Source of the DNA: Ureibacillus acetophenoni
Lineage (GTDB): Bacteria; Bacillota; Bacilli; Bacillales_A; Planococcaceae
Length of the DNA: 64,000 bases
Reading direction: 5' to 3'
NCBI RefSeq assembly: GCF_900220965.1
Contig: NZ_OBQC01000010.1
Location: 1 to 64,000 of the forward strand
The translations under genes and the position numbers were made by a program. Under the pieces are notes generated by a model that was not told where the DNA came from, made no database searches, and saw only the letters and a list, made by a program, of their open reading frames with translations. Numbering within the stretch: the first letter of the stretch is position 1; each line of letters opens with the position of its first letter. Shown one piece after another: positions 37,696 through 63,380 of the stretch.

Positions 37696-38103
37696 TTGGA
37701 ATACCAAGATGTATTTGTTGTTACTACCTATCGATTAGGGGAGATGTATCAGTGCCCTGCGGAAACGTTGATTTGGAATTTCCTCGAACACGAAGATGAA
37801 TTTGTTGAAGGAGTTCATTTTTATCAATTAACGGCTGAGGAACTTGAATTTTTAGAAGCACAGTTTCCGTATGAATTTGTTGAATGTAGTTCTCCGTATT
37901 TATGGACGTTCGAAGGAATGTACAAGCATGCAGAATTACTATCTGGGCTTGAAGCTTGGAAGGCGTATGTGAATTTAGTTTACTACCATTTTAGTGAATC
38001 AGAAGAACTGAAAGAGGCCGTCCACATACTTGAAAATGTAACGAAACAATTAGAGGCTCTTTATATTTACCGTATTTGTGAAAAGGAGTGGAATGCACAA
38101 TGA
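37696..38103 (+). CDS. ORF6N-type phage-like DNA-binding protein
   Basis: 135 residues if TTG 37696 is used (GGGAG 8 bases upstream); ATG 37690 is also in frame but too close to it. The N-terminus FVVTTYRLGEMYQCPAETLI, then WNFLEHEDEFVEGVHFYQL, resembles the ORF6N/KilA-type domain of phage antirepressors. The C-terminal part is helical and unrecognised. Its stop overlaps the next gene's start (ATGA), so it belongs to the replication module that follows. It could be a regulator of that module. Identification by eye only. Confidence 0.65.
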   Translation: MEYQDVFVVTTYRLGEMYQCPAETLIWNFLEHEDEFVEGVHFYQLTAEELEFLEAQFPYEFVECSSPYLWTFEGMYKHAELLSGLEAWKAYVNLVYYHFSESEELKEAVHILENVTKQLEALYIYRICEKEWNAQ

Positions 38104-39011
38104 AAGACAAACTACTAATCCCTGAAGCACCTTTACAAACGTTGCCTACACTTGTTTTGAAACTTGGTCTTAAAGAAGCACTAATTCTACAACAGCTCCA
38201 TTACCGTCTTTTGAGTTCACCATATGAAAGAGATGGTTATACATGGTACAAACATACGTACACCGACTGGCAGAAGCAGTTACCGTTCTATTCGGAACGA
38301 TCGATTAGTCGAGCGATTCTCAACTTAGAAAACGACAAAATTATCGTTTCAACCCAAGAATACAATCCATATAAACTCATAAAAACGAAATGGTATCGAA
38401 TCGATTACGAGAATCTTTACCGCGTACTTGGGGTTGAATATGACCCGAAAAGCCAAAAGATAATTAATTTTAACCCAAAAGAACTATTCCCGTATTACGC
38501 TGTTGATGTAGATGGCATTCACGATTCATTAAATGATTCTGCCAATAACCCGCAAATTGGCAGTACCACTAACACGGGAGAAACGTCGGGTACATGTCAA
38601 ACTTTGTTTACGCAGGATGACACAGATGGTGCATCTATAAAAGAAGAATTAAAAGAAGAATATAAAAAAGATATTGTCGTGAAGAATCACGACGTTGCGG
38701 CTGAAATCATTCAGTACTTAAACAAAAAAACAAATCGTAACTACCGATTGAATAGTCACTCAACCAGAAGGTTTATCAATGGCCGATTTAATGACGGTTA
38801 TAAGTTTGAGGACTTTATAAGTGTCATTGATTTCAAAGTAAAACAATGGTTACACGATCCAAAAATGAAAAGCTTCTTACGACCAAGCACATTATTTAAC
38901 CCTACAAACTTTGAAAACTACTTAGTTGAGTCACAACAAACTCCAATAAAGCGGAAAAGACGTGAAGTGAAACCAGTTGAATTGGATTTCACGTTAGGCG
39001 AGGAAGATTAA
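38100..39011 (+). CDS. Phage-type replisome organiser (conserved phage C-terminal domain)
   Basis: 303 residues from ATG 38100 (AAGGAG upstream). The N-terminal half (KLGLKEALILQQLHYRLL, WQKQLPFYSERSISRAIL) is a winged-helix domain like replication initiators. The C-terminal ~80 residues (EIIQYLNKKTNRNYR, then INGRFNDGYKFEDFISVID, KPSTLFNPTNFENYL-like) match the phage C-terminal domain seen in DnaD-like helicase-loading proteins. A central low-complexity Asp/Asn/Lys/Glu linker joins them. Directly followed by a DnaB-like helicase, the expected partner. Confidence 0.8.
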   Translation: MKDKLLIPEAPLQTLPTLVLKLGLKEALILQQLHYRLLSSPYERDGYTWYKHTYTDWQKQLPFYSERSISRAILNLENDKIIVSTQEYNPYKLIKTKWYRIDYENLYRVLGVEYDPKSQKIINFNPKELFPYYAVDVDGIHDSLNDSANNPQIGSTTNTGETSGTCQTLFTQDDTDGASIKEELKEEYKKDIVVKNHDVAAEIIQYLNKKTNRNYRLNSHSTRRFINGRFNDGYKFEDFISVIDFKVKQWLHDPKMKSFLRPSTLFNPTNFENYLVESQQTPIKRKRREVKPVELDFTLGEED

Positions 39012-39030
39012 ACGTTTGGAGGTAGAACAA

Positions 39031-40368
39031 ATGGCTAATCAACTAAACTACGAACTCATGGAAAGAAGCTTACTAGGAACAATGTTAGTTGAAAACTTCT
39101 TGATTCTAGATGCAGATTTAACACCAGATATGTTTCAATCACAGGTGCATCGCTCTATTTTCAGAGCGATGCAGCACTTGGCATACCAGGATAAACCGGT
39201 TGACTACATAACGATTTTGACAATGGTGGATCCAAAAGAGACAGGGGGAGCACCATATTTAGCAAATCTACAAAACTTCGCTGACTCAGAGAAATTCGAC
39301 TCCTATTACGAAATGTTCTTGGACGCTTGGCGGGAAAGGGAAAAACAGAAATTATTATTCCATGCTCAAAGCGGGAACTGGTCCATCGAAGATATACAAA
39401 AGGCATTGGACCAGCTCCAAACGAACACCACAAGAATAGACACAAGCATCACAAATGATTTAGTAGCCATGTACGAACTTCCAGAAAAGCCAATGGAACA
39501 AATCCCTGCAGTTCCAACGAAAATAAAACAGCTCGACCGCATGTTAGTCGGATTTAGAAACGGGGAACTTACCATCGTAGCAGGAAGGCCCTCCATGGGG
39601 AAAACAGATGTCATGAACTACTTTGCCTATACCGCGGGAATAGCAGGATTCCTCCCCATCGTATTCTCACTCGAAATGGACCGCACGATGCTCATCCATC
39701 GCCTCGTAGCAACGACAGGGAAAATGAACCGATTAAGAATGCGAGACCCCTACAAATACTTCTCAGAAAAACAAAAGGAAAACTGGGTACATACGCTCAC
39801 AGAAGTAGATAAAACAAAAATCCATATCGATGACCGTGCTGGACTAACTGTTAATCAAATACGTGCACAAGCAAGAAGCATTATCCGAACTAATCCAGAG
39901 CGAAAACCAATTATCTTTATAGATTACTTACAGATTATTTTTTCAAACGATACGCGCGGAGGAAATCAAACCTACATGATTGGCCAAATCAGCTCGGAAC
40001 TAAAAAGAATGGCAAAAGAATTTAACTGTCCAGTCGTTTGCCTCGCCCAACTCAACCGAGGCGTCGAATCCCGCCAAAACAAACGCCCACTCATGAGCGA
40101 CCTCCGGGATTCCGGCAATATAGAACAAGACGCAGATGTCGTTATCCTGTTGTATCGGGATTCTTATTACGCGGAATTGAAAGAGAATGCGAATGAAGAG
40201 TACGAGTATGAGAGTGAGGAAGCTGATACGCAAGCGTATGTGGATAAAAGGGGAAATGAACCACTGGAACTCATTGTCGCTAAGAATCGAAATGGTCCGA
40301 CAGGGAGTGTTATTGTGAATTATCGCAAAACTACTGGGCAGATCACGGATCGAGTTGTTGGGAAGTAG
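39031..40368 (+). CDS. DnaB-like replicative helicase (phage-type)
   Basis: 445 residues from ATG 39031 (TTTGGAGG upstream). N-terminal helical DnaB domain (ERSLLGTMLVENFLILDADL) and RecA-like C-terminal domain with Walker A VAGRPSMGKTD (near 185), Walker B PIIFIDYLQIIF, and RDSGNIEQDADVVILLYRDS. This is the family of hexameric 5'-3' helicases. The host dnaB is usually elsewhere (with rplI) and longer in its N-domain, so this copy most likely belongs to the phage-derived module, loaded by the preceding protein. Confidence 0.88.
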   Translation: MANQLNYELMERSLLGTMLVENFLILDADLTPDMFQSQVHRSIFRAMQHLAYQDKPVDYITILTMVDPKETGGAPYLANLQNFADSEKFDSYYEMFLDAWREREKQKLLFHAQSGNWSIEDIQKALDQLQTNTTRIDTSITNDLVAMYELPEKPMEQIPAVPTKIKQLDRMLVGFRNGELTIVAGRPSMGKTDVMNYFAYTAGIAGFLPIVFSLEMDRTMLIHRLVATTGKMNRLRMRDPYKYFSEKQKENWVHTLTEVDKTKIHIDDRAGLTVNQIRAQARSIIRTNPERKPIIFIDYLQIIFSNDTRGGNQTYMIGQISSELKRMAKEFNCPVVCLAQLNRGVESRQNKRPLMSDLRDSGNIEQDADVVILLYRDSYYAELKENANEEYEYESEEADTQAYVDKRGNEPLELIVAKNRNGPTGSVIVNYRKTTGQITDRVVGK

Positions 40369-43162: not shown

Positions 43163-43367
43163 TTTCAACACTCCATTTGTGCAATTTTACTTTGTTAATT
43201 AATAGATTTCTGTTATTCGATTAAGGATTGAAGTAGTAGTTTACCCTTAAATTATATTGTAGAATTTTGGCGAATTTTCAGATAGTACACCATGCTTTTA
43301 TATTATATAATTGGAATATAAATGTAAAACTAACACCTTTGGATCTATTAGAAAGGAGCGGAACTAT

Positions 43368-44144
43368 ATGGAGTTACTCATAATTATTGTAGTTGTTATG
43401 GTTGTTGCAATGACCATACTCAGAGTAAAATTCCCAGCCATCAAAGGTGCGGTAGGTGAACGTTTTGTTAATAAAAAGCTAAGTGAGCTTGGTACAAGCT
43501 ACAGAGTATTTCATGATCTATATCTCCCAAATGACAAGGGTGGAACAACACAAGTCGATCACATTGTTACATCCATCTATGGCGTTTTCGTCATTGAAAC
43601 CAAACATTACGACGGCTGGATACTTGGATCAGAAAATCAAAAATACTGGACCCAAGTCATCTATAAACGGAAAGAGAAATTTTACAATCCCATCTGGCAA
43701 AACTATGGCCACATCCAAGCTTTAAAAAAATACATAGACAAAGAAGATTTTGAACCTATCCACTCCATCATCGCATTTTCATCACAATCTACCTTCAAAT
43801 TCAAAGAAGACTTTAAATCAGCTAGAGTCATCCAATTCCCACAACTACTAAAAGTCATCAAAGAATGGAATGAAATCAAAATAAGTGAATTTGAGTTGAA
43901 ACAAATCAATAGAGCACTTGAGAACTTAATCATTGAAGATAAGAAAGAAAAGAAGCATCTACAAAAACAACATGTCCAATCATTGAAAACCAATCTGAAA
44001 GATCAAAGAGTGAAAGAAGCCGAGAGTATAAAGCAAAATCGTTGCCCGAAATGTGGAGGTGAGTTGTCTCTTAAGAAGGGGAAGTATGGTTCGTTTTATG
44101 GGTGTGGTAGTTATCCGAAGTGTAGGCTAACGAGAGAAATATAA
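43368..44144 (+). CDS. Membrane-anchored NERD nuclease-like protein with topoisomerase zinc ribbon
   Basis: 258 residues from ATG 43368 (GAAAGGAGCGG upstream). An N-terminal membrane helix (LLIIIVVVMVVAMTI) is followed by a NERD domain: KGAVGERFVNKKL, TQVDHIVTSIYGVFVIETKH with Asp and Glu-x-Lys as candidate nuclease residues. A coiled, Lys-rich linker leads to a C-terminal four-Cys zinc ribbon CPKCGGEL / YGCGSYPKC of the type found at the end of topoisomerase I. This architecture is common as a standalone protein in Firmicutes; a DNA-processing or plasmid/phage-related role is presumed. Confidence 0.87.
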   Translation: MELLIIIVVVMVVAMTILRVKFPAIKGAVGERFVNKKLSELGTSYRVFHDLYLPNDKGGTTQVDHIVTSIYGVFVIETKHYDGWILGSENQKYWTQVIYKRKEKFYNPIWQNYGHIQALKKYIDKEDFEPIHSIIAFSSQSTFKFKEDFKSARVIQFPQLLKVIKEWNEIKISEFELKQINRALENLIIEDKKEKKHLQKQHVQSLKTNLKDQRVKEAESIKQNRCPKCGGELSLKKGKYGSFYGCGSYPKCRLTREI

Positions 44145-52262: not shown

Positions 52263-52647
52263 TAGTTATAAAATTGAACGTAATTTTAATAGCAGATGCT
52301 ATAGTTTATTCTAAAGGAGACTGTTTTCAGAAACAGTCTCTTAAATTTTAAGGTTTGCTAAATGTATTATCTTATTAATCTCCAAAATTTTTGAAATAAT
52401 TTTTGAACTAATCAGTATATTTCATCTAACCCTACAACTGTTAATTACTACAATATGAGAATTTGATAGAATAATATTGCGTAGTATTTAATATGAGTTT
52501 TTATATATGCAAAAATTTATTGTCAATCCGTTTCTTATAGTTAAAAAGTTCCATTTAAAAAGTTCTTATTATGGTAAAATGAACATAGGTTATGTGAGAT
52601 TATGGTAGATTAATATATAAATTATACTTCTTTTGGAGTGATCTTTT
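52263..52647. other. 385-base intergenic region between the two defence units
   Basis: Contains the hairpin GAGACTGTTTT/AAACAGTCTC (52317-52341), then AT-rich DNA. TTAAAAAGTTC occurs twice 14 bases apart (52541-52551, 52555-52565), followed by ATGGTAAAATGA, the likely promoter/operator zone of the helicase operon. TTTTGGAGTG lies before ATG 52648. No gene seen. Confidence 0.6.
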
Positions 52648-54570
52648 ATGAAAATTGTCCCTAATAATTATGAAACATCTAATGTTCTCGGTCTAACATC
52701 AAATGAGCTTGCATTAGTTAATCGACTTACAAAATTTAATTTAAATTCGACTGTTCTTCTCAAGCTTCAACCTGTAAACAATGTTAAATTAGATTTTTGT
52801 TTAATAGATAATCAAATTGGATTAGTTTTAATTATTACAGTATCACCTAATGTAGATAATTATGAGCAAATCGTTAATGTCTATAAAAATATAATAATCA
52901 AACAATATATAAGTCAAATAGAAACGAAGCTTTCAAGTTTTAGGACGTTATATGAGGGTGGAATAAAATTCCCAATAGGAATACTATTTTACTTTCAAGG
53001 AACTAATAAAGATTCCTTTCCTACTTCTAATTTTGTCGATAATTATTTTTTATTTGAAAATGATTTCAATAAATGGAGTAATGATGATGATCTAAAAGGT
53101 AAGCTAAAAAAATCCATTCTAAATGAATTTAGTCATTTTCAGGGTTTTACAGATGCTCAATTAGAAAATATTAAATTAGCAATATGTCCAGAGTATACTA
53201 TTCCAAAATTCATTGAAGTAGATGATAGTTTCGATAATTCGAATATGTATAAGGAGTTTAAATTACAAAAAAATAGGAAACTAGATCGCCAACTAAAAAC
53301 ACTTGATCTAACTGAAGATCAGATCAATATGGTTAACGGTATTGAATATGGACATGAATTACTACTAGCAGGCGCGGGTAGTGGTAAAACAGTGTTGTTG
53401 ACTGCAAGAGCTTTTAGGGTTGCGAAAGCATTTCCGGATAAAAATATATTAATAACGTGTTATAATGCCCCGTTATCTGAAAGTGTTAATTTATTTATTA
53501 ATACTTCAGGAATGCGCTTAAGAAATTTGAAAAATAGAACATTCCATGGTTTATTAATTGATCTACTAGAGACTAATGGTATTCCTTGTCATAGAACAGG
53601 TGATGATACTTATTTTGATAAGCTATTTGAAACAGCTCAAAAAGCTTTGGATGAAGGTAAAATTAAAGACAAATTCTATGGAATATTTATAGATGAAATA
53701 CAAGATTTTAAACCAGAATGGTATCGGTTTTTGACTAAGTTAATAGAAAACAAGAATGAGTATTTCATTAATATCTGCGGGGATAAAACACAAGATATTA
53801 GAGGGATAATTAATGAAAGTGGTGAACCATGGAAAGAGGTAAAAGGGATTAATTTCGATGGAAATAAGAAAATCCTAAAGACAAATTTCCGATATACAAC
53901 CAGATTGAATAATTTTATTATTGCATTTGGTATAGGTAGCAAAAAGGATTTAAAGAAATATGATATAAATAATTTTGATGATGAGGAGCTATTTATTAGG
54001 TCGAAAACTCACTTTAATGAAAAAGGTGAGTACCCTGTTATCTATAAAGTAGATAAATATGATGAGGAAATTCATAAAGTAATAGAGTGTTTAAATGATT
54101 TGCATTACAACAAGAAAATTCCTCTATCTGAAATTGCTATTTTATATCCAAATAGGAAAAATGATCTTAAGAAATATTACCCTTACCATTATTTAATTAA
54201 AGCTTTAGAAGATAATAAAATCAGTTATACAGATTTAGGTGACAACATTTCTAATTATTATGATAGAACAGGTGTAGTGATTTCTACAATTCACAAATCT
54301 AAAGGTCTAGATTTTCAAGCGATAATTCTTTTTGGTTTAAATGGATTATTTCCTTCTAAAATAACTAGAAATTCTTCTACAGACATAAAAAATGAATATC
54401 AAAAAAATATGAATCTTATTTATACTGCGATTACACGTCCATCTAAATATCTATCAGTTGTTAATTTAGATAGAGAGGATAACCCTTATATTAAGCTTAT
54501 TGATGATACACCAGTGATGATCCAAAAGTTGAATAAGATTAGAAAAATTAAAAAAAGGAGTGAGAATTAA
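52648..54570 (+). CDS. SF1 (UvrD/Rep-type) helicase, first gene of the DISARM-like operon
   Basis: 640 residues, TTTTGGAGTG upstream. Residues ~220-640 carry the SF1A helicase motifs: Q-motif/Walker A LLLAGAGSGKTVL (near 241), Ia ILITCYNAPL, Walker B FIDEIQDF (near 348), IV KTNFRYT, V STIHKSKGLDFQ (near 546) and VI IYTAITRPSKY (near 591). The first ~200 residues look like a NERD/PD-(D/E)XK nuclease fold (LDFCLIDNQIGLVLIITV), but Ile and Val stand where a catalytic Glu-x-Lys is expected, so the domain is probably inactive. The stop overlaps the DrmA-like gene (TAATG). It occupies the place of DrmE or DrmD in DISARM; whether it is a divergent DrmE needs a profile search. Confidence 0.83.
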   Translation: MKIVPNNYETSNVLGLTSNELALVNRLTKFNLNSTVLLKLQPVNNVKLDFCLIDNQIGLVLIITVSPNVDNYEQIVNVYKNIIIKQYISQIETKLSSFRTLYEGGIKFPIGILFYFQGTNKDSFPTSNFVDNYFLFENDFNKWSNDDDLKGKLKKSILNEFSHFQGFTDAQLENIKLAICPEYTIPKFIEVDDSFDNSNMYKEFKLQKNRKLDRQLKTLDLTEDQINMVNGIEYGHELLLAGAGSGKTVLLTARAFRVAKAFPDKNILITCYNAPLSESVNLFINTSGMRLRNLKNRTFHGLLIDLLETNGIPCHRTGDDTYFDKLFETAQKALDEGKIKDKFYGIFIDEIQDFKPEWYRFLTKLIENKNEYFINICGDKTQDIRGIINESGEPWKEVKGINFDGNKKILKTNFRYTTRLNNFIIAFGIGSKKDLKKYDINNFDDEELFIRSKTHFNEKGEYPVIYKVDKYDEEIHKVIECLNDLHYNKKIPLSEIAILYPNRKNDLKKYYPYHYLIKALEDNKISYTDLGDNISNYYDRTGVVISTIHKSKGLDFQAIILFGLNGLFPSKITRNSSTDIKNEYQKNMNLIYTAITRPSKYLSVVNLDREDNPYIKLIDDTPVMIQKLNKIRKIKKRSEN

Positions 54571-57500
54571 TGCTGGTCATGCAAAAAGTAGATGAAAAGA
54601 AAGAATACGAAGCCAGGGTAGCCTTAGTAAATCATCTCCAAAGTTACTTGTCAGATAGAATAAGTGGAAAATCTATCACTAGACTTAATGATGGTTCACA
54701 CCCAGAAGATTTATTTTTTATTGGTAGATTATCAGGAAATAAAGCAGATTTAAATAATAAATTCAGTCAATCTGAGCCTAAACAAATTGGATTAACTTTT
54801 AGAATCTCCAAAAAGAACTTAGTTAAAGAAACTATTGTTGTTAAAATTTCAAGTGATTATTACGTTAAAGTAAATCCAACATACGAAGAACAATGTGAAC
54901 ATTATATCAATGAATTCAATAATAGGTATCCAGACAACAAAGTTGAGACATTCAAAGAATTAATCGATAATGTCACTCAATTTCCTTCATATTCTTGCGA
55001 TGTAATTCAAGTGTTCAATAAAGTTCACCTAGATAACTTTGATTTTGAACTTAATTTAAAATCAATTTGTGGTGAGGGTTATTCCGGAAAAAAATACTTA
55101 AATGACGTTAGAGATCAAATTTTAACATTACTTGATAATAAAATAGATGAAATTTCAAATAGATATGGAAAAATCAATGATCAAGTAACATTTAATGATT
55201 TGAAATCGAAAGAGACATGGTTAGACTTTATTAAACGTACTGCAAAAAGACCATTTGTCCAAAATTGGGATTGCAAAATATTGGCGGAAATTAAAGAAGA
55301 AAATGACCAATACTGTAGAGTTATGATTTCTTTTATTAATAATACAGAGGATATAAAAAAGGAACGAGATATTGTTAATACATTTTTCAATACTTCTTTA
55401 ACAGTTGAATTGTTGAAAACAATGGTAGAACCCATTGAATTAAAGGCATTAAAGGATGATTATAAGTACAACAAGACACAAATAGCGCTAGGTAAGAATT
55501 GTAGTGTAGAGGATATAAGCCCTAGCAAAGAAAAAATCACAAAAGTAAAAACTAGTAGTCTTCCTATCTATAAACAGTATCGATTAAAAACAGACGATGA
55601 TAAGTTTAAAGCCGAATTTCAAAAGTTAATAGATAATCCAATAAAGGTACTGAAGAGTTTACAAAAATTAATGGAAACTGAAATCGAAAATTGGATTAAC
55701 GATAAAAATATTAAGTTACATAGTGATGCGGCGATTAAACAGTTTAATGCTGAAATAGATGGATTTAAAAACGAAATAAAAAGATTTACCAATGGGATTT
55801 CTGTTCTTGAAAATTATCCAGATTTAGCTTTAAGACCATTTAAGTTAATGAATGAGACGTTTAAAAATTCATCTAAGGGTTACAAGAGCTGGAGATTATT
55901 CCAGATTGTTTTCATCGTCTCAATGATACCAGATATTGTTAGTAGAGAAATTGGAGAAATAAAACCACTAGCACAATATGAAAAAGTTGATCTAATTTAT
56001 TTTCCAACAGGTGGAGGTAAAACTGAAACATACTTGGGTACAGTAATCTTTAATATGTTTTTTGATCGAATTCGAGGTAAAAATGCCGGAACAACTGCTC
56101 TAATTAAATTCCCCCTCAGATTACTTTCATTACAACAACTTCAACGTGCAACAGATATTACTGCACAAGCAGAGTTGATTAGAAGAAACCAAAGTGATAT
56201 GAAGGGTACCGAGCCGTTTACAGTTGGATATTTTGTTGGAAGTGGTAACACTCCTAACAAACTTTATGATTCTGATAGAAAAGAAGATATGATACCTTCT
56301 ATTCAGGCGATGAGTGAACAAGAACGTATTGATAAATTTCTAGTTATTGACCGTTGTCCATTTTGCCAAAGTGATAAAATTTCGATTGACGTTTTAGTTA
56401 ATGAAAGAAGATTAGTGCATGTATGTAAAAATGAAAACTGTAATGAAGGAATTTTACCATTATATATTATTGACCGAGAAGTATATCGTTATTTACCAAC
56501 GTTTATAGTCAGTACACTTGATAAATCTGCATTAATAGGAATGCAAAGAAACTTTAGAAATATATTTGGAAACTTCCATAAAAAATGCTTACTCCATGGT
56601 TATACTAGCCAAGGTAAATGTTTGGAATCAGAAGGGGATATGTGTAAGTTTGCTGATGAGGCTCTTGAAAATGTTGAGATTTATGATGCGAGTCCAAGTT
56701 TAATAATACAAGACGAATTGCACTTAGTAAGAGAATCTCTTGGAGCTTTTAATGCTCACTATGAAACATTTATTAACTATTTTTTAAGTGAATTTTCATC
56801 ACTTAAAAGACCAATTAAATTTATTGCAGCTACTGCAACAATTTCTGATTATGAGCAACAAGTTTATCATTTGTATCATAAGGAGGCTATTAGATTCCCT
56901 GCTCCATCGCCTTATATAGATAAAAGCTTTTATGCCTACACTGATTATGAGGATCTGAATAGAGTCATTGTTGGAATTGCACCGTATGGGAAAACACCAG
57001 TTTATAGTATTTTAGATGTTATTCAATACTATAGAGAAGAGTTACACAGACTATGGCACAATGAAGACTCAAGAATAAGCATTAATAATATGCCAGATCT
57101 ATCTAGTGAACAATACAAAAGGGTCTTAAAAGATTATTGGGTAATCCTTGAGTATAACCAGATTAAAAATGAAGGAATGCAGATAGTAAACTCAATAGGA
57201 TCAATGATTAACGAAAGATTAAAAAGTCAAGGTATTTCAGATCAGAATGTAAAAACGATGACAGGTGACGATACCTTTAAAGATGTAAGAGAGATTTTAT
57301 CCGAAGTTGAACGACCAACGGGTGAAAAATCTGAAATTGACTTAATCGCAGCAACTAGTATGATTTCTCACGGGGTCGATGCTGACACATTTAACTTTAT
57401 GATTTTCTTCGGAGTACCAAAAAATACTGCTGAATATATTCAAGCCTACTCACGCGCAGGTAGAAAGTATCCAGCACTAGTCTTGATGGTATTTAATTCA

Positions 57501-58004
57501 AATAGAGAAAAGGATTCAAGTTATAATCAACATTTTGTAAAGTTTAATGAATATAAAGATCTATTAGTTGAGCCCGTCCCGATAAATAGGTGGGCAAATA
57601 ATGCTGTTGAAAAAACTCTTCCTGGATTATTATCAGCCCTAATGTTAAATCATTATGATTATCATCTATCAAAAGAAGGTTATAAGATTTATATGTTATC
57701 AGGGTTTCAAGAAGCTATTAGAGCAGATAAATTACCAAATCATGAAGAACTATCAGATATTTTATGTAGTGCTTATGGAGCAGATAAGGACACTTTCGGT
57801 GCTTTATATAAGGAAAAAATCGCTCAATTAACACAGAGAATTATTAAAGGATTAATGTCAGAAGAAGTAAATGAACGAAATGATTACTTTATAACAAATG
57901 CATTAAGTAAAATAGGCTTTCCGGTAATGAGAAGTTTGAGAGATACTGACACACCTTTAGATATAATAATGGAAGATCCAGATGCAGAATTAATGAGAAA
58001 GTAA
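54570..58004 (+). CDS. drmA: DrmA-like SF2 helicase
   Basis: 1144 residues, AAAGGAG upstream, coupled to the preceding helicase gene by TAATG. The long N-terminal region (~1-470) is specific to the family. SF2 motifs: Walker A YFPTGGGKTETYLG (near 475), DELH box IIQDELHLVRESLG (near 712), III FIAATATISDYEQ (near 752), V SMISHGVDADTFN and VI AYSRAGRK (near 960). Cysteine pairs CPFCQ (near 595) and CKNENC (near 618) form a zinc finger. The layout and the following DUF1998 protein match DrmA of DISARM. DrmA and DrmB form the conserved DISARM core, which loads on phage DNA ends. Acting with the SF1 helicase here is inferred. Confidence 0.85.
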   Translation: MLVMQKVDEKKEYEARVALVNHLQSYLSDRISGKSITRLNDGSHPEDLFFIGRLSGNKADLNNKFSQSEPKQIGLTFRISKKNLVKETIVVKISSDYYVKVNPTYEEQCEHYINEFNNRYPDNKVETFKELIDNVTQFPSYSCDVIQVFNKVHLDNFDFELNLKSICGEGYSGKKYLNDVRDQILTLLDNKIDEISNRYGKINDQVTFNDLKSKETWLDFIKRTAKRPFVQNWDCKILAEIKEENDQYCRVMISFINNTEDIKKERDIVNTFFNTSLTVELLKTMVEPIELKALKDDYKYNKTQIALGKNCSVEDISPSKEKITKVKTSSLPIYKQYRLKTDDDKFKAEFQKLIDNPIKVLKSLQKLMETEIENWINDKNIKLHSDAAIKQFNAEIDGFKNEIKRFTNGISVLENYPDLALRPFKLMNETFKNSSKGYKSWRLFQIVFIVSMIPDIVSREIGEIKPLAQYEKVDLIYFPTGGGKTETYLGTVIFNMFFDRIRGKNAGTTALIKFPLRLLSLQQLQRATDITAQAELIRRNQSDMKGTEPFTVGYFVGSGNTPNKLYDSDRKEDMIPSIQAMSEQERIDKFLVIDRCPFCQSDKISIDVLVNERRLVHVCKNENCNEGILPLYIIDREVYRYLPTFIVSTLDKSALIGMQRNFRNIFGNFHKKCLLHGYTSQGKCLESEGDMCKFADEALENVEIYDASPSLIIQDELHLVRESLGAFNAHYETFINYFLSEFSSLKRPIKFIAATATISDYEQQVYHLYHKEAIRFPAPSPYIDKSFYAYTDYEDLNRVIVGIAPYGKTPVYSILDVIQYYREELHRLWHNEDSRISINNMPDLSSEQYKRVLKDYWVILEYNQIKNEGMQIVNSIGSMINERLKSQGISDQNVKTMTGDDTFKDVREILSEVERPTGEKSEIDLIAATSMISHGVDADTFNFMIFFGVPKNTAEYIQAYSRAGRKYPALVLMVFNSNREKDSSYNQHFVKFNEYKDLLVEPVPINRWANNAVEKTLPGLLSALMLNHYDYHLSKEGYKIYMLSGFQEAIRADKLPNHEELSDILCSAYGADKDTFGALYKEKIAQLTQRIIKGLMSEEVNERNDYFITNALSKIGFPVMRSLRDTDTPLDIIMEDPDAELMRK

Positions 58005-58024
58005 TGAAAACCGGGAGGATCAAG

Positions 58025-59926
58025 ATGGCAAAAATTACAATGTCTAGAGGAATACTTCAGTCACTTTTTAGATATCTTCCTGAGAATTGGATTGATTTTG
58101 ATTCGGGAAATGGAGTTGCTAAAGTAACAAAGTGGGATTCTAGACCATTACATGGAATAAATAAAAAAAGACTAATAAAAAGAATAGAGAATGAAATAAA
58201 AGTTTTTTCTAATAAAAGTGGCTTTTTAGATACTCTATCTGAAGAAGATTACGAGATAATGGAACCCAAATATATCTACGTTGAAGCAAATCCATTAACA
58301 TTCTACTGCAAAAGATGTAAAAGTGGTTATTCTTATCAAAATGTAGAACAAATGAAAAAGAAAACTAAAAGTAAGTATTGCTGTGAAAAATGCTCAGGTA
58401 AACTACAGCAATTTGATCTGATGTATGCTTGTGAATGTGGATGGGCTGGTCCTATTCAAATCTCCCCATGTGGAAATAAAGAGCATGGTTTTAAACATAT
58501 GAAATTTAAAGATCATAAAGAGTTAAGTAAAAGAAGATGGATATGTAACGAATGTGGACAAGAAAAACCTTTAATCAAATTCTGTCCTGATTGCAAAACT
58601 AGATTAATGCTTTCACCATTTAGACAATCTGATGTTTATATTCCAAAAACATTAGCAATGATTGATCTAATTCGATCAGACCAAACCACTACTCATGTAT
58701 TCAAACAGGACCCAGAAGAAAGATACTTAGAAAAGGAGTATGTACAAAAATTAATACATGCAAATTATCTAGGAATATCTGATCTTGAGGAAGTTAGGAA
58801 AATTATTAATCAAGTTGAAGAAGAAAGAGATAATAAAGACTTTGAAACCTTATTAAATGAAAAGATAGCTGAATTTATTAGTTATGGTATGGATGAGGAT
58901 TCAGCCAGAACATTCGCGAAAAACGCATTGAAAGTTAATAATCCTGATAATAAATTAGATGAAATTGAGTCAAAGGTAAATTCTTTTATTCATACAACAT
59001 CAGAACAACTATATCAAAATTCTTTAAATTTATTAGAATATCATGCAGTTAAGAATAGTAAGTCTGTTTCAACAATTGAAGACGCGATCGAAAAGGCTAA
59101 AATATTATCTTCTTCATCTAAACCTGATGAATTTAGAGAGGTAGTTAAGAGACAGGGATTCATTAATGTGCAGGCGTGTTCTGGTGTACCAATGTTATTC
59201 TCATCCTATGGATACGTTAGAAGAAACTCTAGTCCAACTAAGGTAAAATTAAGAGGTTTTCCAAAAGATAGGGAGTTAGAAAACACTTCAAAAAAACCTA
59301 TATACGGTACAAAATTAGAAACTGAGGGAATTTTGTTTGAATTTGATAGAAAGAGAATTATAGAGTGGTTATTACAAAATAAAATTATCAATAGAGATGC
59401 ATTCAATGTACCAGAAGACCTTAATGATGATCAAGCTCTTAAGGCCTGGTTCCTAACACATATAAATCCTAATGTTATTAACAGACATGAAGAAATAGAT
59501 GAACAATACAAGGTGACTAAGCATGTATATACCTTAATCCATACAATTTCACATCTATTGATGAAAAAAGCAGCTGAATTATGTGGTTTAGGCATCGACT
59601 CCATCTCAGAATATATATTCCCTGCAATACCGTCAGTATTTATTTATTGTCATAATGCTCAAGGGTTTAAATTGGGGGCAATGTTTAATTTGTATGAAGC
59701 GTTTTTAGATAAATGGCTAATAAATAGTTTGGAAAATGCAGACAATTGCCTTTATGATCCAATTTGTATAGAAGATAAAGGCGCTTGTTTAGGATGTATA
59801 AACATTAACGAAATTTCCTGTGAACATTTTAATAAAGATCTAAATCGAGCTTATCTTATCGGAAACATTTATGATGATAATAAGAGAGTTTATGGTTACT
59901 GGGAGTATGAATTAGAGAAAAACTAG
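58025..59926 (+). CDS. drmB: DrmB-like DUF1998 protein
   Basis: 633 residues from ATG 58025 (GGGAGG upstream); the frame opens 21 bases earlier without a good binding site. N-terminal zinc-binding region with CKRCKSGYSY, CCEKCSGK, CECGWAG, CNECGQEKP and CPDCKTR (near 95-200). The C-terminus is a DUF1998 domain: HTISHLLMKKAAELCGLGID (near 504), CLYDPICIEDKGACLGCINI (near 575) and FNKDLNRAYLIG. This is the standard DrmB layout, placed 20 bases after the DrmA-like gene. DrmB is the partner of DrmA in DISARM. The operon ends here; no PLD-type DrmC gene follows. Confidence 0.85.
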   Translation: MAKITMSRGILQSLFRYLPENWIDFDSGNGVAKVTKWDSRPLHGINKKRLIKRIENEIKVFSNKSGFLDTLSEEDYEIMEPKYIYVEANPLTFYCKRCKSGYSYQNVEQMKKKTKSKYCCEKCSGKLQQFDLMYACECGWAGPIQISPCGNKEHGFKHMKFKDHKELSKRRWICNECGQEKPLIKFCPDCKTRLMLSPFRQSDVYIPKTLAMIDLIRSDQTTTHVFKQDPEERYLEKEYVQKLIHANYLGISDLEEVRKIINQVEEERDNKDFETLLNEKIAEFISYGMDEDSARTFAKNALKVNNPDNKLDEIESKVNSFIHTTSEQLYQNSLNLLEYHAVKNSKSVSTIEDAIEKAKILSSSSKPDEFREVVKRQGFINVQACSGVPMLFSSYGYVRRNSSPTKVKLRGFPKDRELENTSKKPIYGTKLETEGILFEFDRKRIIEWLLQNKIINRDAFNVPEDLNDDQALKAWFLTHINPNVINRHEEIDEQYKVTKHVYTLIHTISHLLMKKAAELCGLGIDSISEYIFPAIPSVFIYCHNAQGFKLGAMFNLYEAFLDKWLINSLENADNCLYDPICIEDKGACLGCININEISCEHFNKDLNRAYLIGNIYDDNKRVYGYWEYELEKN

Positions 59927-60059
59927 TATAAGGAATTTGAATTTGGTTACAAGATGACTTGGTTTTTTCTGAGTCATCTTTTTCATCAGGAGTAGAGTAC
60001 CTAGAATGTATATAAATAGAGAAGGATATTGAACCGTTATAAAGAAGAGGGGAATAATA

Positions 60060-60091
60060 AAAATACTAAGCTTTAGCTTAGTATTTTTTTA
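60060..60091. terminator. Terminator after the DISARM-like operon
   Basis: AAATACTAAGC pairs with GCTTAGTATTT, loop TTTA, then T-run. It also lies beyond the end of the minus-strand endonuclease gene and may serve both directions. Confidence 0.85.
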
Positions 60092-60135: not shown

Positions 60136-61038
60136 TTATTTTAACGATAATAACTCATATCTATTCCATTTATATTCGTTATCATTGTCTATTTGCATAT
60201 CATTAAAATTTATTCTTAGTTTTTCTCTTTGTTGATTTATCCTATTATCCTTATATACTTTGGTTAATTGCTTTTTTACTTCCTTTTTGGTTTCATCTAA
60301 ACTATTTGCATTGAATAATAACCAATCGTGTAAAAGATAATTGTTATTAGAATCTTGTTGATAACTTTGATCAAATATGGCTTTTTCTGTAGAATTTAAA
60401 GTATTATAAAGGTTAGTATATTCTACATTATCCAAGGTAGTAAAGAAAGGTCTAATCATTGTCCTACCGGCCTGTACAAAATCTAAACCTAACTCGTCAC
60501 GCATTAAACCATTTGGAATTGAACAAAGGTATAGTTCAAAGTTCCGTAAAGAATCTATACCACTATCTAAGTTATATACTAGTTTTACAATGTAAGTTAG
60601 TGTATATAATTCTCCATATAATTGATGGTCATATACAGTGGGTAAATTAGATTTAAAAGGGGTACCTAGATAGTCAATTGGATCAATTGAAGCATATGAC
60701 GTTTGATTCTTTCCTAAATCTACCTTGTGTCCTATAGCATCTTGATCGGTATCAAGTGTAGATTTACAATCTATATGTATTACGGCTTTTGGTGTAAGAA
60801 ATGAACTGTCCGAACTTGCTGGGTGAGAGAAAATCTCCCAATCAGTGTTGTTACTGATAATAGTTTGAACAACTCTTTCCATAACATCTGCTACAGCAGA
60901 TTTCCCTGAATATGTTTCTTCAATATCATTAAAGAGGAATTGTGAGGTAAGATTTTTAAAGAAGGTAGTTCCGTTACTTTCTAGTATTTCTTTGAGTTTA
61001 AAATAATAGTATTTTTCTAGATTATTTAGCTGCTCCAT
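60136..61038 (-). CDS. Putative type II restriction endonuclease (PD-(D/E)XK), copy A
   Basis: 300 residues from ATG 61038 (AAAGGAG upstream). Candidate active site: Asp78 in SSDSSF, then AVIHIDCKST with Asp90-Cys-Lys92, which fits PD-(D/E)XK spacing. The region after it (LGKNQTSYASIDPIDYLGTP, FKSNLPTVYDHQ, CSIPNGLMRDELG) aligns by eye with the product of 62619-63380, so the two are homologues. Between them lies a 5-methylcytosine methyltransferase gene on the same strand, the usual neighbour of a restriction enzyme. Specificity unknown. Confidence 0.75.
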   Translation of the reverse strand: MEQLNNLEKYYYFKLKEILESNGTTFFKNLTSQFLFNDIEETYSGKSAVADVMERVVQTIISNNTDWEIFSHPASSDSSFLTPKAVIHIDCKSTLDTDQDAIGHKVDLGKNQTSYASIDPIDYLGTPFKSNLPTVYDHQLYGELYTLTYIVKLVYNLDSGIDSLRNFELYLCSIPNGLMRDELGLDFVQAGRTMIRPFFTTLDNVEYTNLYNTLNSTEKAIFDQSYQQDSNNNYLLHDWLLFNANSLDETKKEVKKQLTKVYKDNRINQQREKLRINFNDMQIDNDNEYKWNRYELLSLK

Positions 61039-61096
61039 GTAATTCTCCTTTAAGAAATATTTACATATACATTAACATTACTTCCAAATAAATACA

Positions 61097-61127
61097 ATAA
61101 GCTCTCGCCGTAAGACGAGAGCTTATA
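61097..61127 (-). terminator. Terminator after the methyltransferase gene
   Basis: ATAAGCTCTCG pairs with CGAGAGCTTAT (loop CCGTAAGA region). It lies 3 bases past the methyltransferase stop, so the methyltransferase and endonuclease A may be separate transcripts or linked by readthrough. Confidence 0.8.
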
Positions 61128-61129
61128 AT

Positions 61130-62383
61130 TTATACAGTCACCAATTCTACAGTTTCTATTTGTTCAACAATCTTCGTTGCAATTTTCTCTGCCAATAATA
61201 CTGGAACAGCATTCCCAATTTGTCTATACATTGAGTTTAAACTTCCTGTAAAAATAAAATCATTTGGAAACGATTGTAGAATTGCGCATTCACGTGCAGA
61301 TAATCTACGTTGGCGATTCACATGGATTTCAGGAGAAGTTGCAGTTATTGTATCACTTGGTCGATCCCAGTTTGTTATACGTAGTGATTGTTCAAATTTA
61401 ATTTCTTTTTCAACAAATGTAGTAACAACCTCATCGTATTTATCGTCGAAACCAAGAAGCCTTTTTAATTCCCACCAATCTGATGGTTTAGGAATGCTTC
61501 CTGATTTATTATCTTTTCTAAACCAATGGCCGGCAGTATGTCTATAACCAAAATGTTCATCAATTCTTTTAGTTGACCAACCTGATTTGCTACGCCAGTA
61601 TTTTAAGTAATCACAAATTTCAGCTTGATCTACTTCATATTTTCTTCCAAAGAAAGTGTCGTGAACTGTAGTAGAAGCGATATGATTATATATTTTTTCG
61701 CCATTAACTAGTACATATTCACTCGTTTTACCATTTTGAATTTCAACGTCAGCTAAGTAGCCAATAGCTTCTTCGACGGTAATATGGGGTAAAAGTTCTT
61801 TTTCGAATGAAAATAAATCTGTAGTTTTTGATAAATCTGCATGTGTTGGCTCTGGGAAAATATTTTCTGCTCCAATACGATTTCCGATAATGATAACACG
61901 TTCTCTAGCCTGAGGTACTCCGTAATCTGCAGCATTAAGTAATTTATATTCTACTTTATAACCAATCTTTTTAAAGTCTTCAATAATCATCTCAATAACT
62001 TTTCCACCAGCCATGGAAATTAGACCTTTTACATTCTCTGCTACAAAAAATTTTGGTTGTTTATCATTAATAATTCTAAGCATTTCGAGATATAAAAAAT
62101 TTCTCTCGTCTTTCATGCTTCTATTATTATTTGCAACACTGAATCCTTGGCAGGGGAATCCGCCAATAATAACGTCCACTTCTTTTGGAGTCCCAGGAAT
62201 ATCTTTTGAATCTACAGTTTTTATATCAACTAGATCTATATGATCTCCAATATTCTTTCTATATGTGTTTACAGCATCTTTATTAAAATCACAGGCCCAT
62301 AAGATATCAAATCCGGCTTTCTTAAATCCTAAATCCATACCTCCGGCTCCAGAAAATAGTGTGATAAGTGTTTTTTGTGGCAT
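61130..62383 (-). CDS. DNA (cytosine-5) methyltransferase
   Basis: 417 residues from ATG 62383 (AAAGGGTG upstream). All key motifs are present: I TLFSGAGGMDLGF, IV GGFPCQGFSVAN with catalytic Cys78, VI FVAENVKGL, VIII QARERVIIIG, IX RRLSARECAILQSFP and X YRQIGNAVPVLLAEKI. The target recognition region between VIII and IX contains HFGYRHTAGHWFRKDNKSG, seen in several type II m5C enzymes. It would protect host DNA from the flanking endonucleases. It could also supply the DrmMII role for the DISARM-like genes; both are inferences. Confidence 0.95.
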   Translation of the reverse strand: MPQKTLITLFSGAGGMDLGFKKAGFDILWACDFNKDAVNTYRKNIGDHIDLVDIKTVDSKDIPGTPKEVDVIIGGFPCQGFSVANNNRSMKDERNFLYLEMLRIINDKQPKFFVAENVKGLISMAGGKVIEMIIEDFKKIGYKVEYKLLNAADYGVPQARERVIIIGNRIGAENIFPEPTHADLSKTTDLFSFEKELLPHITVEEAIGYLADVEIQNGKTSEYVLVNGEKIYNHIASTTVHDTFFGRKYEVDQAEICDYLKYWRSKSGWSTKRIDEHFGYRHTAGHWFRKDNKSGSIPKPSDWWELKRLLGFDDKYDEVVTTFVEKEIKFEQSLRITNWDRPSDTITATSPEIHVNRQRRLSARECAILQSFPNDFIFTGSLNSMYRQIGNAVPVLLAEKIATKIVEQIETVELVTV

Positions 62384-62557
62384 ATTTATTCACCCTTTTC
62401 TATTTACTTTTCTATAATACATTAATTTGACCGCAAATGCAACATAGGCAAACTGAGATTATGATAAGTAAAATGTTAACTGAAAAACACTAGGCGGGAA
62501 CGTTTGTTCTTATTTTACAACTAAATCAGTAAATTTTCAACTTATTTAAATAGATAA

Positions 62558-62608
62558 TAAAACCCGTTATGGATACAACTGAATTGTATCTTAATCGGGT
62601 TTTTTAAC
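62558..62608. terminator. Terminator between endonuclease B and methyltransferase genes
   Basis: AAAACCCGTTATGGATACAA pairs with TTGTATCTTAATCGGGTTTT (two mismatches), flanked by A- and T-runs, so it can work in either direction. It lies just after the stop of endonuclease B. Confidence 0.88.
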
Positions 62609-62618
62609 AAATACAAAA

Positions 62619-63380
62619 TTATATTTTCTTTGTATAAAGAATGTTATCCGGACCGACTAATTCTTTAATATGTTTAATCTTATTATTAATATCCTCAGGC
62701 ATGTTTTCATTCCAAAGAATTATCTTTAAGCGACTTTGATTATTCAGAAGCTTAAACTGATGACATTTTGTATAATTAAAACGAATTTTACCAGGATTTT
62801 TACCTGCCACTAAAGGTTCGTCATTATATACATCTTTTAGAATTCCATTTGGCATACAAGTTAAATGAATCATATGAATATCGCCAGATTTATCGTATAA
62901 AATACATATAAAATAAGTAAAACAAGGTTTTAAAGTACCATCTGTTTTTCTGTATATAGGTGGTAGGTTACCTTTATAGGGACGATCCTCTTTCCCTCTT
63001 ACTTTAATAAAACCTTCATAACTGTTTTGATTATCACCAACGAAAATATTTTTAGTAATATCTCCAATATTATCTGTTGTTACTGTTTTAATATCTATGT
63101 GTACATAAGCATTATAAGTTTCAAAGAACATATCAGATCCAATAGGGGATGAGTTTGGCTGTCCGAATTGGTTGAATAACCAATAAAATATTCGTTCAGA
63201 TCCTACAGCGAAATCGGAAGTCTCTTGTCCTAAATATTGTTCCCACTGATTGCGTATTTCCTCTTTAGTGCTAAACCCATCTAACATTTTTTCCAGGTCA
63301 ATACTCAAGACGTGGTATATTTGTTTTAAATACTCATTTTCCCAGAATTCAATGTATTCTGGTGAATTAATTTCAAACAT
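62619..63380 (-). CDS. Putative type II restriction endonuclease (PD-(D/E)XK), copy B
   Basis: 253 residues from ATG 63380 (TTGGAGG upstream). Candidate active site: Asp83 in GSDMFFET, then AYVHIDIKTVT with Asp96-Ile-Lys98. VGDNQNSYEGFIKV, YKGNLPPIYRKTDG and MIHLTCMPNGILKDVYND align with the corresponding blocks of copy A, so the two are diverged homologues. It is about 47 residues shorter, mainly in the C-terminal part. Upstream of the methyltransferase gene, from which a terminator separates it. It may recognise the same site as copy A or a different one. Confidence 0.75.
   Translation of the reverse strand: MFEINSPEYIEFWENEYLKQIYHVLSIDLEKMLDGFSTKEEIRNQWEQYLGQETSDFAVGSERIFYWLFNQFGQPNSSPIGSDMFFETYNAYVHIDIKTVTTDNIGDITKNIFVGDNQNSYEGFIKVRGKEDRPYKGNLPPIYRKTDGTLKPCFTYFICILYDKSGDIHMIHLTCMPNGILKDVYNDEPLVAGKNPGKIRFNYTKCHQFKLLNNQSRLKIILWNENMPEDINNKIKHIKELVGPDNILYTKKI

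Follow-up and report, generated by a model that had tools for sequence, protein, structure and literature searches.

How DISARM destroys phage DNA is an open question, because its nuclease DrmC is dispensable according to PMC9142583. A natural DrmA-DrmB operon with one added motor, in a genome in which no DrmC-like protein was found, would offer a minimal three-protein system for testing phage-DNA destruction, and the locus described here raises the question of whether it is such an operon, part of something larger, or something other than defence. It lies in the window, by which we mean the whole 64,000-nucleotide stretch of Ureibacillus acetophenoni contig NZ_OBQC01000010.1 that was analysed. 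We read the trio as a compact DISARM-family operon, likely anti-phage, that joins DrmA-DrmB to an SF1 helicase of the UvrD type, placed where class 2 loci have DrmE, and for which no DrmC-like nuclease gene was found, a reading that we hold to be slightly better than an even call.

The initial annotation described the three genes as tightly coupled, and the coordinates bear this out (Table 1). The SF1 stop and DrmA start overlap in TAATG (54568-54572), and 20 bases separate the end of DrmA from the likely DrmB start, an ATG preceded by GGGAGGA; the Neobacillus homologue begins at that residue too. All three reading frames and their motifs are intact. Hairpins flank the trio, the upstream one separating it from PDC-M33 genes, which have no relative beside the other fetched loci at E<=1e-3 and are thus not indicated as partners, although an annotated DUF6339 protein is present in the Halomicrobium DISARM locus; a consensus terminator scan flagged none of the three hairpins. 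Defence-type genes neighbour the trio (PADLOC, Pfam).

Table 1. Coordinates of the trio, its motifs and the flanking hairpins in the window.
Feature	Position	Strand	Remarks
SF1 helicase gene	52648..54570	+	640 aa; UvrD/GajB-like, degenerate NERD-like N-terminal domain
NERD-like domain, SF1 residues 1-190	52648..53217	+	hhalign to NERD-helicases; column counts; AF2 model
SF1 Walker A GAGSGKT, residues 242-248	53371..53391	+	
DrmA-like gene	54570..58004	+	1144 aa; SF2, YprA-family helicase
DrmA Walker A PTGGGKT, residues 479-485	56004..56024	+	
DrmA DELH box, residues 715-718	56712..56723	+	
DrmB-like gene	58025..59926	+	633 aa; DUF1998/MZB zinc protein; ORF open from 58004
DUF1998-type cysteine cluster C575, C581, C588, C591 (+ C599)	59747..59821	+	
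12-pair hairpin, interval between PDC-M33 genes and trio	52315..52342	+	terminator-like, weak T run; z -3.8
Hairpin then T run, likely terminator	59951..59980	+	25 bases 3' of drmB; z -4.0
13-pair hairpin with T/A runs, possible two-way terminator	60059..60088	.	between convergent genes; z -4.3

The two core proteins are as first described, a DrmA-like SF2 helicase with a DELH box and a DrmB-like DUF1998 zinc protein. DrmA matches the PADLOC DrmA profile at 638 bits and, besides the motifs in Table 1, carries QAYSRAGR at residue 958; its predicted structure is a far better match to the solved DISARM DrmA than to MrfA. DrmB scores 233 bits against the PADLOC DrmB profile and matches the DrmB of 7s9v at E 2e-7, and its cysteines 575, 581, 588 and 591 are invariant in 39/39 aligned relatives, which we chose from 101 found. 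The Pfam DUF1998 model gave no match to this DrmB at E 0.1 or better, but PF09369, which we take to be DUF1998/MZB, is present in 7 of the 101 relatives. Both NCBIfam DISARM models fall far under their cut-offs (DrmAS 400 of 950, DrmB 84 of 240), such that models with high cut-offs miss the SF1-DrmA-DrmB branch. Class 1 DISARM, represented by Serratia DrmAB (7s9v/7s9w), shares with the window proteins the DrmA fold across 957 residues and the DUF1998 end of DrmB. However, the window DrmA appears to lack the domain before Serratia residue 130, because the structural alignment begins at that residue, and the model has a loop of ~15 residues, by its inferred placement, where class 1 has a 57-residue trigger loop. 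No DrmD or DrmMI was seen in the window.

The first gene of the trio was annotated as a UvrD/Rep-type helicase with a nuclease-like N terminus, of which the helicase assignment stands and the N terminus proves NERD-related but devoid of the catalytic E-x-K. UvrD_C (57 bits) and UvrD-helicase (44 bits) are both above their Pfam cut-offs, and the motor motifs GAGSGKT 242, DEIQDF 349, GDKTQ 378 and SKGLDF 551 are intact. The protein is a member of a NERD-UvrD family: among the closest known systems are PADLOC C3a187 'NERD+UvrD' and DRT-associated NERD-helicases, with a profile match over nearly its full length (E 2e-43) and hhalign to NERD-helicases at 99.9. Unlike these proteins, the SF1 is coupled to DrmA-DrmB and has lost the catalytic E-x-K: D49 is kept, but I63 and V65 stand where the catalytic E and K would be, and the N-terminal end is therefore, as judged from its sequence, probably dead. 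An active NERD nuclease was rejected, as the three regex hits among 47 fall outside the catalytic columns, and so was an ordinary UvrD/PcrA (NCBIfam PcrA 51 of 911 bits). GajB of Gabija has the same UvrD-like SF1 fold, and its profiles match at E 1.5e-20, but no GajA was listed beside the SF1 among the 10 proteins scanned, and the NERD-like N-terminal domain is an addition. Helicase activity is not to be assumed for the SF1, because PMC10681800 reports that no unwinding by its relative GajB was observed in vitro.

Had the SF1 been a DrmE, the locus would be an ordinary class 2 DISARM. No DrmE family is among the best 25 of 27 PADLOC matches at E<=1 (the other two have E of at least 0.0027), and an hhalign comparison with seven proteins of the DrmE or DrmE-like kind yielded a probability of 0.3, where 100 is certain; the identification with DrmE was rejected. 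The PADLOC rule for type II DISARM names DrmA, DrmB, DrmC, DrmE and DrmMII, of which the locus has DrmA and DrmB and lacks DrmC and DrmE. The trio is thus a new DISARM-family variant and falls outside DISARM as PADLOC defines it, in keeping with the proposal of an unnamed variant or related system in which an SF1 helicase replaces DrmE or DrmC. The claim that no PLD gene is visible also held. No HxKx4D motif occurs in stop-to-stop frames of >=60 aa between 40000 and 64000 in the window, and a genome-wide PLD profile search, which as a control recognised 8/8 DrmC-type proteins above its cut-off, found no DrmC-like nuclease. PLDc_2 occurs in the genome solely in two proteins, one of 492 aa with two domains and one of 728 aa, which by their size look like housekeeping enzymes, and an overlooked DrmC, whether close to the trio or farther off in the genome, was therefore rejected. 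Taken alone, the absence of DrmC is weak evidence, because PMC9142583 reports that DISARM can do without it and that its operons often lack it. Neither DrmD nor DrmMI is among the families listed for the 10 proteins scanned at 46-63 kb (the best 25 families in the case of the SF1 and the C5 methyltransferase), nor do these 10 include a YprA helicase fused to DUF1998, which is here a separate gene, or a matching methyltransferase (PADLOC, Pfam). The TALON set (ARMADA-like YprA helicase, NERD nuclease, TPR-CSD, TBP) is likewise not present, with no TPR-CSD or TBP in 20 window proteins (Pfam).

The protein searches covered 120 of 279 SF1 matches and 120 of 2184 DrmA matches. Among the DrmA loci read, the four that score nearest to the clade of the window (Neobacillus, one further genome and two viral contigs; DrmA >1000 bits, a cut set post hoc) all have an SF1 upstream and all lack DrmC, and DrmA-led searches found trio loci without using the SF1. 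The expectation that the trio is conserved is borne out for the association, which was read directly in five loci, window included, and not for the exact order: SF1-DrmA-DrmB is found in 3/5, with one extra gene between SF1 and DrmA in the other two. On contigs of equal size, 11 SF1/DrmA pairs were found against 0.19 expected, namely the window, Neobacillus and nine further. Identities for SF1/DrmA/DrmB are 62/77/80 in Neobacillus, 30/38/38 in L058, 30/38/37 in L091 and 31/34/29 in L059, the SF1 values of the last three covering part of the protein, and each of the three also has a match in a protein named Bacillus pinisoli (P0014, P0230, P0135). The SF1 and DrmA locus profiles include the window and Neobacillus, and those for DrmE were built from L021-L024 and seven split loci; some matches hold by construction, because the profiles were scored on the loci from which they were built.

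DrmA is patchy, with matches at E<=1e-20 in 12/151 relatives' genomes, full-length in the genome itself and in parts, at 27-39% identity, in the other 11. The SF1 family also occurs without the trio, in 8/261 genomes of the family at E<=1e-40, own excluded; neither DrmA nor DrmB lies beside the SF1 in the seven of these eight loci that were read (24-29% identity to the nearest reference). Among 398 genomes of the phylum, with few candidates scored per genome, only the genome itself matched at E<=1e-60. DrmA was not found in phage records at E<=1e-5, and a scan of viral contigs for a single DrmE found none. For G152, order and class are represented by one genome each.

Class 2 DISARM (DrmE-DrmA-DrmB-DrmC-DrmMII) is like the trio in that drmA and drmB are adjacent and a partner gene lies directly upstream of drmA, and the labelled DrmA that stand closest in the tree belong to it; the trio differs in having an SF1 for DrmE, no DrmC and no assigned DrmMII. 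ARMADA type II (Bell et al. 2025, PMC12458937) also has both a YprA-type and a GajB-like SF1 helicase. However, its YprA helicase carries DUF1998 and a Vsr nuclease, its SF1 comes last and has a RelE-like domain, and BrxHII-like and PglX-like genes are present. According to PMC11090510, a DISARM-like system with an McrBC association is to be described in a paper of its own, and that system may overlap the present trio; no paper describing an SF1-DrmA-DrmB trio was found in the open-licence literature.

A rather unlikely alternative is that the trio forms one module within a larger system, requiring nearby genes for cutting and self-marking. Candidates would be the NERD zinc-ribbon protein at 43311-44144, 8.5 kb upstream and outside the operon, or the C5 methyltransferase at 61130-62383, 1.2 kb downstream. 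In relatives, the operon does include further genes (GHKL ATPases, DrmD, NERD-helicases or weak radical SAM matches), the Neobacillus relative carries a DrmD-like gene, its genome has a full-length NERD-helicase ~45 kb from the trio, and C5 methyltransferases (E<1e-30) occur in eight other DrmA loci. However, terminator-like hairpins stand on both sides of the trio, and the methyltransferase is on the opposite strand, scores 344 bits as a type II MTase against 225 bits as DrmMII (PADLOC), and has REase-like neighbours. No relative of it was found even at E<=1e-3 in the Neobacillus, L058, L059 and L091 loci, on which ground the adjacent R-M genes were rejected as a conserved part of the trio.

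That the trio is a class 2 DISARM in decay, bereft of DrmC, DrmE and methyltransferase and lying beside an unrelated SF1 gene, is highly improbable. Among the DrmE-labelled DrmA rows, the nearest come from haloarchaeal class 2 loci that have both DrmE and DrmC, as decay would have it, but the SF1 gene, coupled to drmA, is also kept in distant relatives, the three frames and their motifs are intact, and conserved trios are found without remnants of DrmE or DrmC. UvrD-family helicases include repair members, a point in favour of an MrfAB-like DNA-repair operon rather than defence, which we nonetheless consider improbable. Repair members are also reported among YprA-family helicases in PMC12458937.

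If the trio is a DISARM-family operon, a bolder proposal, tentative and somewhat short of probable, is that it represents a third type of immunity in the family, a nuclease-free two-motor machine in which a dead-NERD SF1 replaced DrmE and DrmC beside DrmA-DrmB, in a family with an exchangeable slot before drmA (DrmE, split DrmE, SF1, SF2 or MzaA-like). On our main reading of the trio, DrmA-DrmB would load onto phage DNA where single strands or overhangs are exposed, as in the solved Serratia DrmAB, and the dead NERD domain may serve as a DNA- or protein-docking module that guides the SF1 motor. The motor and DrmAB would then unwind and clear phage replication intermediates, such that two motors, themselves lacking a nuclease, could block phage DNA. 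Degradation, if any, would fall to host nucleases or, in fuller relatives, to the NERD nuclease-helicase 3' of drmB; a NERD nuclease-helicase with intact E-V-K is found directly 3' of drmB in 3/4 relatives.

These arrangements suggest that DrmAB is a core recruiting exchangeable partners, which would help account for the diversity among DISARM-type loci; if the slot before drmA is exchangeable, the means of sensing or destroying phage DNA would depend on the partner. In other loci, drmA is preceded by DrmE, by a DrmE-like pair of split genes, by another helicase or by an MzaA-like gene. DrmE-labelled and SF1-labelled DrmA fall in separate parts of the DrmA tree, in which many branches are long and 134/161 rows are unlabelled.

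The tight coupling reported by the initial annotation is found in the sequence: the gene for the SF1 helicase (UvrD/GajB-like, with a degenerate NERD-like N-terminus) overlaps drmA in a TAATG common to both, with AAAGGAG ahead, and a 20-base gap follows drmA. The most likely start of drmB, judged from the sequence, is an ATG at the end of this gap with GGGAGGA ahead, and the Neobacillus sp. Marseille-Q6967 drmB starts at the same position. Because hairpins lie on both sides of the trio, it is probably a transcription unit of its own; none of the three hairpins was flagged by a simple consensus scan.

Genes of the SF1-DrmA-DrmB trio and flanking hairpins
Feature	Position	Strand	Remarks
Hairpin before trio	52315-52342		weak T run; folding energy better than shuffles
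SF1 helicase	52648-54570	+	640 aa, ORF calling
DrmA	54570-58004	+	1144 aa, ORF calling
DrmB	58004-59926 (open frame)	+	likely start ATG 58025
Hairpin after trio	59951-59980		T run; folding energy better than shuffles
Hairpin after trio	60059-60088		T runs; folding energy better than shuffles

Genome scans with a DrmA profile (E<=1e-100) gave 4/398 (phylum), 1/1 twice, 1/26, 3/113 and 6/398 (class), counts that include the own genome and repeats, and a scan of viral contigs gave 19 loci; among named genomes, Neobacillus sp. Marseille-Q6967 was the single close relative that the DrmA-led scan turned up. The trio is rare: at E<=1e-60, with a few candidates scored per genome, the SF1 family was confined to the own genome among 398 of the phylum. 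Of 261 genomes in the family, 8 besides the own one carry an SF1 relative that stands alone (E<=1e-40), and neither DrmA nor DrmB lay beside SF1 in the seven loci read from these eight. Besides the window's own, 46 DrmA loci were annotated with SF1, DrmA, DrmB and DrmE profiles, 44 of which hold a DrmA-matching ORF, some partial (L069 and L070 appear to be the same locus twice). The initial annotation had looked to conservation of the exact gene order, and this stands in part: an SF1 gene lies upstream in the window and in all four loci with DrmA above 1000 bits (L020 of Neobacillus, L058, L059 and L091), but L058 and L091 carry an extra gene of ~355 aa between SF1 and DrmA. The remaining 40 of the 44 gave no SF1-family match above 91 bits. 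The 1000-bit cut was chosen after the scores were known, and L059 (1015) scores near L093 (985, without SF1); in the DrmA tree, L059 falls within the SF1 part and L093 outside.

Identities of SF1/DrmA/DrmB to the window's proteins (62/77/80 in Neobacillus, 30/38/38 in L058, 30/38/37 in L091 and 31/34/29% in L059, the last three SF1 values covering part of the protein) fall in step, the pattern expected under joint inheritance. L058 and L059 were also recovered, as the same contigs (L027 and L028), by an SF1-led scan. In a protein database, comparison of 63 x 120 clusters yielded 11 SF1/DrmA pairs whose longest contigs are of identical size, the window and Neobacillus being two of them, against a chance expectation of 0.19 and a maximum of 3 in 2000 jittered sets. 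Cluster P0014, a protein named Bacillus pinisoli, was left out of the pairing for want of a recorded contig size; Bacillus pinisoli proteins match SF1, DrmA and DrmB, two of them on contigs of identical size.

The position before drmA is variously occupied in other loci. DrmE is found there in L021, L022, L092 and L096 (PADLOC, E<1e-4), with weak matches in L023 and L094, and is probably split into genes of ~320 and ~500 aa in seven more DISARM-like loci of same-class genomes (L043-L047, L049 and L050), none of which has a PLD-motif gene behind drmB; the ~500-aa gene of L044, the one locus of the seven tested, gave a DrmE_C match below cut-off. UvrD/GajB-like proteins occur in L063 and L066, NERD-helicases in L048 and L062, a ResIII SF2 helicase in L040 (10088-11812), which the genes of L041-L042 resemble in size, and a type III Res-like protein in L060 (5651-8317). 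The proteins of L081 (11619-13076) and L093 (10781-12004) match only the C-terminal part of MzaA, and that of L074 matched no profile. All 15 SF1-labelled rows of the 161-row DrmA tree fall inside one 120-row part (support 84, rising to 99 once two more rows join), a grouping limited by long branches and 134 unlabelled rows, L096 among the latter since its DrmE identity came later. The haloarchaeal DrmE-labelled DrmA rows lie just outside this part and the split-DrmE rows far outside.

The Neobacillus locus combines features of class 1 and class 2 DISARM: two genes immediately before its trio (the pair at L020 207-7918) encode an SNF2 helicase that is DrmD-like and a TmtA-like, sacsin-like protein of 1500 aa, whose end appears HNH-like by eye only. 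Around SF1-DrmA-DrmB in L058 (4316-19387) and L091 (3631-18704) an eight-gene operon is conserved, in the order GHKL ATPase, SF1, ~355-aa protein (a weak FapA match in L058), DrmA, DrmB, NERD-helicase, radical SAM (match below cut-off) and second GHKL ATPase.

The initial annotation saw no gene for a PLD nuclease such as DrmC, and this is borne out. The PLD motif HxKx4D is absent from all stop-to-stop frames of at least 60 aa at 40-64 kb of the window, and across the genome, which is 100% complete in 39 contigs, the Pfam profile PLDc_2 matches only two proteins, one of 492 aa carrying two domains and one of 728 aa, which we take, on size, to be cardiolipin synthase and polyphosphate kinase; the same profile detects 8/8 DrmC-position proteins of other loci over cut-off. 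A PLD-motif ORF lies directly 3' of drmB in 12/44 DrmA loci, leaving out that of L042, 0.4 kb past drmB; the 12 include all four clear-DrmE loci and none of the SF1 loci. In its place, L058, L059 and L091 have a NERD-helicase with intact EVK. Searched with the helicase alignment, the own genome gave matches confined to the helicase part; a separate NERD zinc-ribbon protein is encoded at 43311-44144 of the window, and in Neobacillus a full-length NERD-helicase is encoded ~45 kb away from the trio. DrmC is reported to be dispensable and often missing from DISARM, and recruitment of other PLD nucleases has been proposed (PMC9142583); the own genome is without an obvious PLD candidate for recruitment.

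A search of open-licence papers found no description of the trio. A published division of YprA helicases (PMC12458937) recognises repair branches as well as DISARM, Dpd, Druantia, ARMADA, BRIGADE and TALON; UvrD and SF1 occur once each in that main text, and the one helicase of this kind noted there is the GajB-like ArmD. PADLOC requires DrmA, B, C, E and MII for type II DISARM (PMC9252829), and the window locus would therefore not be called.

By sequence or model, the trio comprises two motors with intact motifs and a DUF1998 zinc protein, and no intact nuclease motif was recognised within the operon. By analogy with Serratia DrmAB, DrmAB would load where DNA exposes a single strand and translocate by ATP hydrolysis, thereby blocking replication and transcription, as hypothesized by the authors of PMC9142583. 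We further propose here that SF1 may be a second motor working with DrmAB, that its dead NERD domain may dock DNA or protein, and that host nucleases would carry out the degradation. Since no unwinding by GajB was seen in vitro (PMC10681800), SF1 could instead be an ATP-driven sensor.

The trio sits in a dense defence island (42251-63380), with NucS-like, NERD zinc-ribbon, Mrr, PDDEXK_4/PDC-S26 and PDC-M33A/B/C genes and a type II R-M-like cluster. In the latter (60136-63380, - strand), a C5 methyltransferase lies between a weak BglI-like protein and an unclassified 300-aa protein with an 'HIDCK' stretch, possibly a restriction enzyme that no family model covers. Three genes 2.6 kb beyond DrmC in the class 2 DISARM locus of a Halomicrobium plasmid (L021, 17969-21510), one annotated as DUF6339 and two as hypothetical, are reminiscent of the PDC-M33 trio; none matched it by tblastn at E<=1e-3. 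At 38088-40368, a phage-like pair, a Phg_2220_C protein and a DnaB replicative helicase, is probably a prophage remnant next to the island.
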